DNA of 11,811 nt, taken from assembly GCA_019312985.1 (NCBI GenBank), contig JAFDCC010000066.1:1-11811 (forward strand), written 5' to 3'. The stretch is from Deltaproteobacteria bacterium (GTDB lineage: Bacteria; Desulfobacterota; Desulfobulbia; Desulfobulbales; BM004). Below, one piece after another: positions 6,550 to 7,557 of this stretch (position 1 is the first letter of the stretch; every line of letters begins with the position of its first letter). The translations under genes were made by a program, and so were the position numbers. The notes beneath the pieces were generated by a model. It searched no databases. It had not been told where the DNA came from and worked only from the letters and a program-made list of their open reading frames with translations.

Positions 6550-7467
6550 ATGGCTTTCATCGATGAAGCCAAATTCTTTGTCAAGGGTGGCGACGGCGGT
6601 AACGGCTGCGTCAGCTTTCGCAGGGAAAAATTTGTCCCGCGCGGTGGGCCGGACGGCGGTGATGGCGGCAAGGGCGGTGATGTTATCATTGAGTCATCAA
6701 CGCGCCTCAGCTCGCTTATCGATTTCCGCTACCGCTCCCATTTCCTGGCCGAAAAGGGGCAACACGGCCAGGGCAGAAAAAAACACGGCCGCAATGGGGA
6801 GGACTGTGTCGTCATGGTGCCGGCCGGTTCCCTGATAATGGATGCGGACACCGGTGCAATCGTTGCCGACCTCGTCGAGGAGGGGCAGAATGTTGTTGTC
6901 GCCCGCGGCGGAAAAGGCGGCCCCGGCAATACCCACTTTGCCAGCAGTACGAACCGCGCCCCCAGGGTCGCCGGCAGGGGCAAAGCGGGAGAGGAGCGCT
7001 GGCTGCGCATCGAGTTGAAAATTTTAGCCGATGTCGGCCTTGTGGGGCTGCCCAATGCCGGCAAATCAACACTCCTTTCGAAGCTTTCGGCGGCACACCC
7101 CAAGATTGCGTCGTATCCGTTCACCACCCTGGAGCCCCACCTCGGTGTTTTGCAGATCAACGATATGCCGCCCTGCATTATCGCCGACATTCCCGGCCTC
7201 ATCGAGGGGGCCCACCTGGGCGCTGGCCTCGGCCACAGGTTTCTGAAGCACATCGAGCGCACCAGGCTGCTCCTCCACGTAGTCGATGCTTCCCTTCCCG
7301 TTGACGAGATCATCGCAGACCAGCGGACCATCGAGGAGGAACTGCGGGCATTTAATGAAACCCTTCTGGAGCGCCGTAAACTTGTCGTGCTCAACAAGAT
7401 CGACCTGGTGGGCGATACAAAACAGGTTGAAAAAATCCGGGCGGTTTTTGATGAAAAGGGTATATAA
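6550..7467 (+). CDS. obg: Obg/CgtA GTPase, truncated by an in-frame TAA
   Basis: Obg is a GTPase needed for late 50S assembly and linked to stringent control. The glycine-rich Obg fold spans residues 1-158 ([20 protein letters not shown], then [14 protein letters not shown]). The G domain follows: G1 GLPNAGKST (166-174), switch I YPFTT (189-193), G3 DIPG (213-216) and G4 NKID (282-285). Translation stops at TAA 7465-7467 after 305 residues, before G5. Downstream, the same frame continues without a shift into recognisable Obg sequence with the G5 motif (ISALAGSGIDEL) and ends at TGA 7555-7557, giving an expected protein of about 335 residues. A single-base change of GAA, CAA or AAA to TAA explains this. 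The start has a family-typical N-terminus but no obvious ribosome-binding site. This is a real mutation, a sequencing error, or much less likely a readthrough site. Confidence 0.93.
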
Positions 7468-7557
7468 ATACTTGCAATATCGGCCCTGGCAGGTTCAGGT
7501 ATTGACGAACTCAAGCGGTACCTCGTCGAAACCCTGGCAAAGGGATTTGACGACTGA
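7468..7557 (+). pseudogene. obg: C-terminal end of obg beyond the premature stop
   Basis: Twenty-nine codons in the same frame as obg, directly after its TAA, reading ILAISALAGSGIDELKRYLV and so on, ending GFDD before TGA. It holds the G5 motif (SAL) and the final helix of the G domain. There is no start codon or ribosome-binding site near the break, so independent translation is unlikely. It belongs to the gene above and marks the intact coding extent as 6550-7557. Confidence 0.88.

Follow-up and report, generated by a model that had tools for sequence, protein, structure and literature searches.

An in-frame TAA ahead of the G5 motif of obg in a draft Desulfobulbales-type genome is most likely an error or a very recent one-off mutation

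The window analysed here, 11,811 nucleotides in length, is an entire contig (C66) of a draft genome (G000) of 1,587,681 bases in 299 contigs, which is 61% complete, about 1% contaminated and contains one obg. Among named organisms, its closest relatives are Desulfobulbaceae, Desulfobacterales and other 'Deltaproteobacteria' known from metagenome assemblies, with at most 76% identity, in a comparison from which the window's own genome records may be left out. The names of these relatives point to an environmental bacterium of Desulfobulbales type, and its fragmentation and its kin suggest that this genome is itself metagenome-assembled. The obg gene is found in the neighbourhood rplU-rpmA-obg-proB, as in relatives, and congeneric loci have identical neighbours. 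The features of the locus are given in Table 1. As the original prediction had stated, a TAA follows residue 305 in frame and without any frameshift, and a further 29 codons lead to a TGA; the G5 motif SAL (codons 311-313), which sits after the stop, is thereby cut off.

Table 1. Coordinates of obg, its in-frame stop and the neighbouring proB in the window
Feature	Position	Strand	Remarks
obg reading frame	6550-7557	+	ATG at 6550, TAA inside, TGA at the end
obg 5' part (Obg/CgtA GTPase), 305 codons	6550..7464	+	Obg fold and G domain short of G5; NCBIfam and Pfam matches
In-frame TAA, codon 306	7465..7467	+	column variable in relatives, mostly serine
29 conserved obg sense codons past the TAA	7468..7554	+	last strand, G5 loop and last helix of the G domain
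SAL, G5 motif, codons 311-313	7480-7488	+	downstream of the TAA
TGA terminator	7555..7557	+	gives 335 aa, the usual length among relatives
proB, intact	7623..8780	+	divergence yardstick; 10 differences in 385 residues to P0121

In profile searches, the 305-residue head of obg scored 454.9 bits against NCBIfam NF008955 (cut-off 406) and 439.4 bits against TIGR02729 (cut-off 280.25). Both are equivalog models, and these curated cut-offs place it in the Obg/CgtA family; Pfam GTP1_OBG and MMR_HSR1 also match the head. Like these bacterial, ribosome-associated GTPases, it has a glycine-rich Obg fold followed by a G domain, it is located between rpmA and proB, and its G5 motif and last helix are coded, here past the stop. 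It differs from them by the TAA at codon 306: translated with table 11, the product stops at residue 305 and the G domain is incomplete, SAL lying beyond. The gene is obg, and its product as read would be incomplete. Read across the TAA, the frame is 97% identical to P0001, a natural relative, along residues 1-335, the single TAA lying inside the alignment. Because of this alignment, the frame is not due to chance.

The closest obg relatives found in a search of 5.8 billion protein sequences are P0001, P0002 (90% identical) and P0003 (88%), each of 335 residues, which is the length of the frame read across the stop. All three have serine at codon 306. We aligned 189 distinct rows, combining the window with 120 proteins and with the distinct sequences of 82 loci. 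Among the 184 other rows with a residue at codon 306, serine is found 83 times, lysine 25, alanine 14, glutamate 13 and arginine 12, besides others, and 4 rows have a gap. The column varies, and codon 306 does not specify a conserved functional residue. The stop had been proposed to derive from GAA, CAA or AAA by one substitution. An origin from a Glu, Gln or Lys codon is possible in general, but the closest relatives carry serine, so that this list misses the likeliest ancestor. The AT-rich stretch that the stop was said to create (TATATAAATA) is indeed present at 7461-7470, but its downstream part did not arise with the stop because the codons just 3' of the TAA (CTT, GCA or a synonym, ATA) are common to congeners. 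In the loci retrieved, intact obg genes encode 328-362 residues, most often 335, and the Obg of this lineage thus contains little beyond the G domain.

To date the stop, the divergence of the sequences on both sides of it was considered. The 29-residue tail is identical to that of P0002 at 29 positions, to that of P0001 at 28 and to that of P0003 at 26, the 305-residue heads differing at 31, 9 and 38 positions, respectively; at the rate of the head, the chance of finding no tail difference from P0002 is 0.045. Over the whole gene, obg and P0001 disagree at 10 of 334 residues. The neighbouring proB differs at 10 of 385 from its nearest relative, P0121, and is likewise 97% identical. Because proB shows the same divergence, obg is not accelerating. 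Faster evolution of obg was in fact looked for and not seen: its rate is that of proB, and none of its residues in the window departs uniquely from a column conserved above 80%. Of the obg-P0001 substitutions, four can clearly be assigned to the window's lineage and one to that of P0001, numbers too small to tell. The tail after the TAA is undecayed, and has been under ordinary constraint until now. An undecayed tail without acceleration of the gene implies that the stop is an error, is very new, or is read through.

In order to see how often obg is interrupted in related genomes, the order was searched with P0001. The gene was recovered in 235 of 257 genomes at E 1e-40 or better, and in 22, the congener G002 included, none was found. 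We inspected 230 of these genes, namely the 150 best matches and 80 of the remaining 85. Since the contigs of G210 and G164 end before the site of codon 306, this site is covered in 227 of the 229 other genes, none of which has a stop there; the check proposed originally, whether relatives end at the same place, thus showed that they do not. Elsewhere along the gene, interruptions do occur. In-frame stops were found in two of the 230 genes, the TAA of the window and a TAG in G214, and frame breaks in three, in G098 (about residue 190-200), G210 (about 35-50) and G245 (about 38-84), giving 5 interruptions in total. All five belong to assemblies of at least 290 contigs, a class to which, counted by hand, 67 of the 230 belong (P 0.0019 in a hypergeometric test, a post hoc value as the class was chosen after seeing the data). 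Both in-frame stops lie among the final 30 of the 335 residues (probability by chance about 0.008, also post hoc, with n = 2), a placement that suits real, tolerated mutations better than errors spread uniformly. The other short obg matches reach contig ends (for G249, from coordinates alone), with the exception of G027, which is complete with an insertion. Interruptions of obg in species-representative genomes are therefore at about the percent level here (2/230 for stops, 5/230 with frame breaks), and such interruptions of essential genes need read support before any biological reading.

Some of these genes deserve a separate description. The TAG of G214, a draft with about 350 contigs, is positioned at L122:778-780, near the normal end of obg, and precedes the next stop by 15 codons. 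In the loci of G210 and G245 (L082 and L083; also L124 and L126), the obg frame is broken in its glycine-rich N-terminal part, one of them being without some 45 codons; these breaks look like repeat-related misassembly. A divergent obg, with 51% identity and 23 unique departures at conserved columns, is present at L084:6001-6909 on a groundwater metagenome contig.

The quality of the draft genome was assessed from its other genes. No in-frame stop was found among 21 listed of its 23 ABC-transporter domains; the congener draft G002 has an in-frame TAG inside one listed conserved ABC domain. The 12 other complete genes in the window align with relatives uninterrupted, as judged from the 12 best matches of each; for the ends of leuS and pckA there was no sequence to compare. 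The mazG gene has the same length as in congeners, and two other loci have a longer form. A codon-usage scan was run on 147,314 bases (the window and 20 further contigs), with a simulated detection rate of 50% (12,619 of 25,381 positions) in the same ORFs that trained it. It picked out three stops flanked on either side by coding-like sequence, of which obg is the only convincing one. The other two, L102:15364 and L110:4340, were rejected as decay stops: they are without a Pfam match on either side, a possible start codon comes 5 codons after the first and 1 codon after the second, and they may correspond to non-coding frames or ordinary gene boundaries. With these two candidates unconvincing, genome-wide decay was discarded. 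Since the ABC domains, the window genes and the scan are nearly free of stops, the assembly is not riddled with them, which limits its error rate but is compatible with one wrong base.

We then considered what the truncation would remove. The tail of P0001 aligns to the segment ISA of the Obg structures 1lnz, 5m04 and 4csu and to SAL of 1udx, a segment that we take to be the guanine-contacting G5 motif. The structure model of P0001, which is poor (mean pLDDT 51) and served for the secondary structure of the tail only, places a strand at 306-309 and a helix at 318-331 with low confidence. S311, A312, G315 and G317 are conserved at 90% or more in a 20-sequence alignment.

An Obg that is naturally only 305 residues long and functional would have to do without these residues and without G5, the cut being inside the G domain. 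The closeness of the usual end of the protein to that of the G domain in this lineage speaks in its favour, and so do two database proteins of 310 aa, P0066 and P0106, which likewise end early, at residue 310, in a match list ranked by the 305-residue query and therefore favouring proteins that end near residue 305. These two were however rejected as parallel truncations: they end in unrelated residues and not at a shared stop, and in the alignment their ends would rather resemble a frameshift or a contig end. Moreover, the E. coli variant ObgE1-340, which according to PMC10123104 is without the C-terminal domain only, retains some 30-35 residues more than the TAA-cut product by structure alignment. 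A functional short form is thus quite improbable. Readthrough or suppression of the TAA, yielding some full-length Obg, would by contrast leave the tail under continued translation and hence undecayed, as it is. None of the 227 other inspected genes covering the site, however, has this TAA. Of the 13 frames listed in the window, 4 end in TAA, which is, as previously pointed out, the ordinary stop of dnaB, rplI, rpsR and mazG, and none of the 14 tRNA genes recognised among 15 model hits in the 61% complete genome has a UAA-reading anticodon. To our knowledge, the systems that insert selenocysteine at UGA and pyrrolysine at UAG make no use of UAA. Our literature search on UAA nonsense readthrough in bacterial essential genes returned works on yeast only. 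In prokaryotes, in-frame stops are widespread in protein-coding genes, many of which are not pseudogenes, as PMC7918605 argues. The obg TAA resembles these conserved stops in that the sequence flanking it is conserved on both sides, but that study accepts a stop only if it is shared by two or more genomes, whereas the obg TAA was seen in no second genome. We consider readthrough improbable, and both it and the functional truncation find little support. As an undecayed tail is what readthrough predicts, it stays compatible with the data that the population truly carries the TAA in its sole obg, surviving thanks to efficient readthrough or suppression of UAA or with an Obg devoid of G5; we regard this as highly improbable. 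A real and fixed stop would challenge the indispensability of an intact Obg G domain or, alternatively, reveal efficient UAA suppression in a free-living bacterium.

The obg TAA thus most likely does not define a new kind of protein, and reflects either an error or a very recent one-off mutation. The reading we rate highest, with a probability of roughly 0.6, is that the TAA would come from an error in the consensus or from a minority variant, in a draft assembly that is fragmented and derives from an uncultured Desulfobulbales-type bacterium, the base being wrong or unrepresentative. The obg of the living organism would then most likely be full length, with 335 residues. This reading is preferred because the tail is undecayed, obg is not accelerating, the 61% complete genome has a single obg and the assembly belongs to the fragmented class; the TAG in an ABC domain of the congener draft G002 also speaks for it. 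It builds on what is seen directly: the TAA in the sequence, the undecayed tail, the full-length closest relatives and no other stop at this site in the obg genes examined that cover it. The rest of the draft genome, which is not error-ridden, points away from it. Among published precedents, PMC1852416 describes interrupted genes that result partly from sequencing error and partly from real mutation, 28 of 73 resequenced ones in the published genome of Mycobacterium smegmatis being sequencing errors. The obg case is similar in that the frame of a conserved gene is split and the split is not shared with the relatives examined; the errors described there were all frameshifts with 0 miscalls, whereas obg would have a single wrong base. 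We found no paper that joins premature stops, assembly errors and metagenome-assembled genomes, and only general works on base errors and polishing.

The second-ranked explanation, possible but doubtful in our view, is that the sampled strain genuinely acquired a nonsense mutation very recently. Its Obg would then lack G5 as well as the final strand and helix of the G domain, and the cells would be crippled or dying, or rescued by a second obg or a suppressor tRNA outside the 61% of the genome that was recovered. That a single codon is cleanly changed, its flanks being intact on both sides, is in line with such a mutation, as are the sampled sequence of the draft, which has no general excess of stops, and the TAG that G214, a member of the same order, carries in the same C-terminal segment. 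Against it stand a tail without decay in a gene without acceleration, and the lack of a rescuing copy: the check for a second complete obg that had been suggested was run on the 61% complete genome and found none, the two weaker matches (35 and 31% identity) being confined to the G domain. In addition, Obg is described as essential in bacteria in PMC10123104, so that such a lineage should not last. The striking natural truncation put forward in the original prediction is not borne out: the tail is undecayed, obg does not accelerate, no second obg was found and the assembly is in the fragmented class that holds all five interruptions. Sequence error, which was offered there as the refuting alternative, is the explanation now rated highest.

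Two other genes of the window were noted in passing. The ribosomal protein L21 (5528-6085, + strand) is extended at its N-terminus by about 83 residues, which give an HeH/LEM-like match below the threshold. This extension is also found in the congeneric loci L033 and L037, and the listed matches outside the genus align from residue 84 only. Between mazG and rplU, a 153-residue AP2-domain protein (4878-5339, + strand; Pfam AP2, E 9e-10) is 85-90% identical in five congeneric loci that match it over its full length (L033, L034, L036, L037 and L038), and is more conserved in these loci than obg (73-76%).
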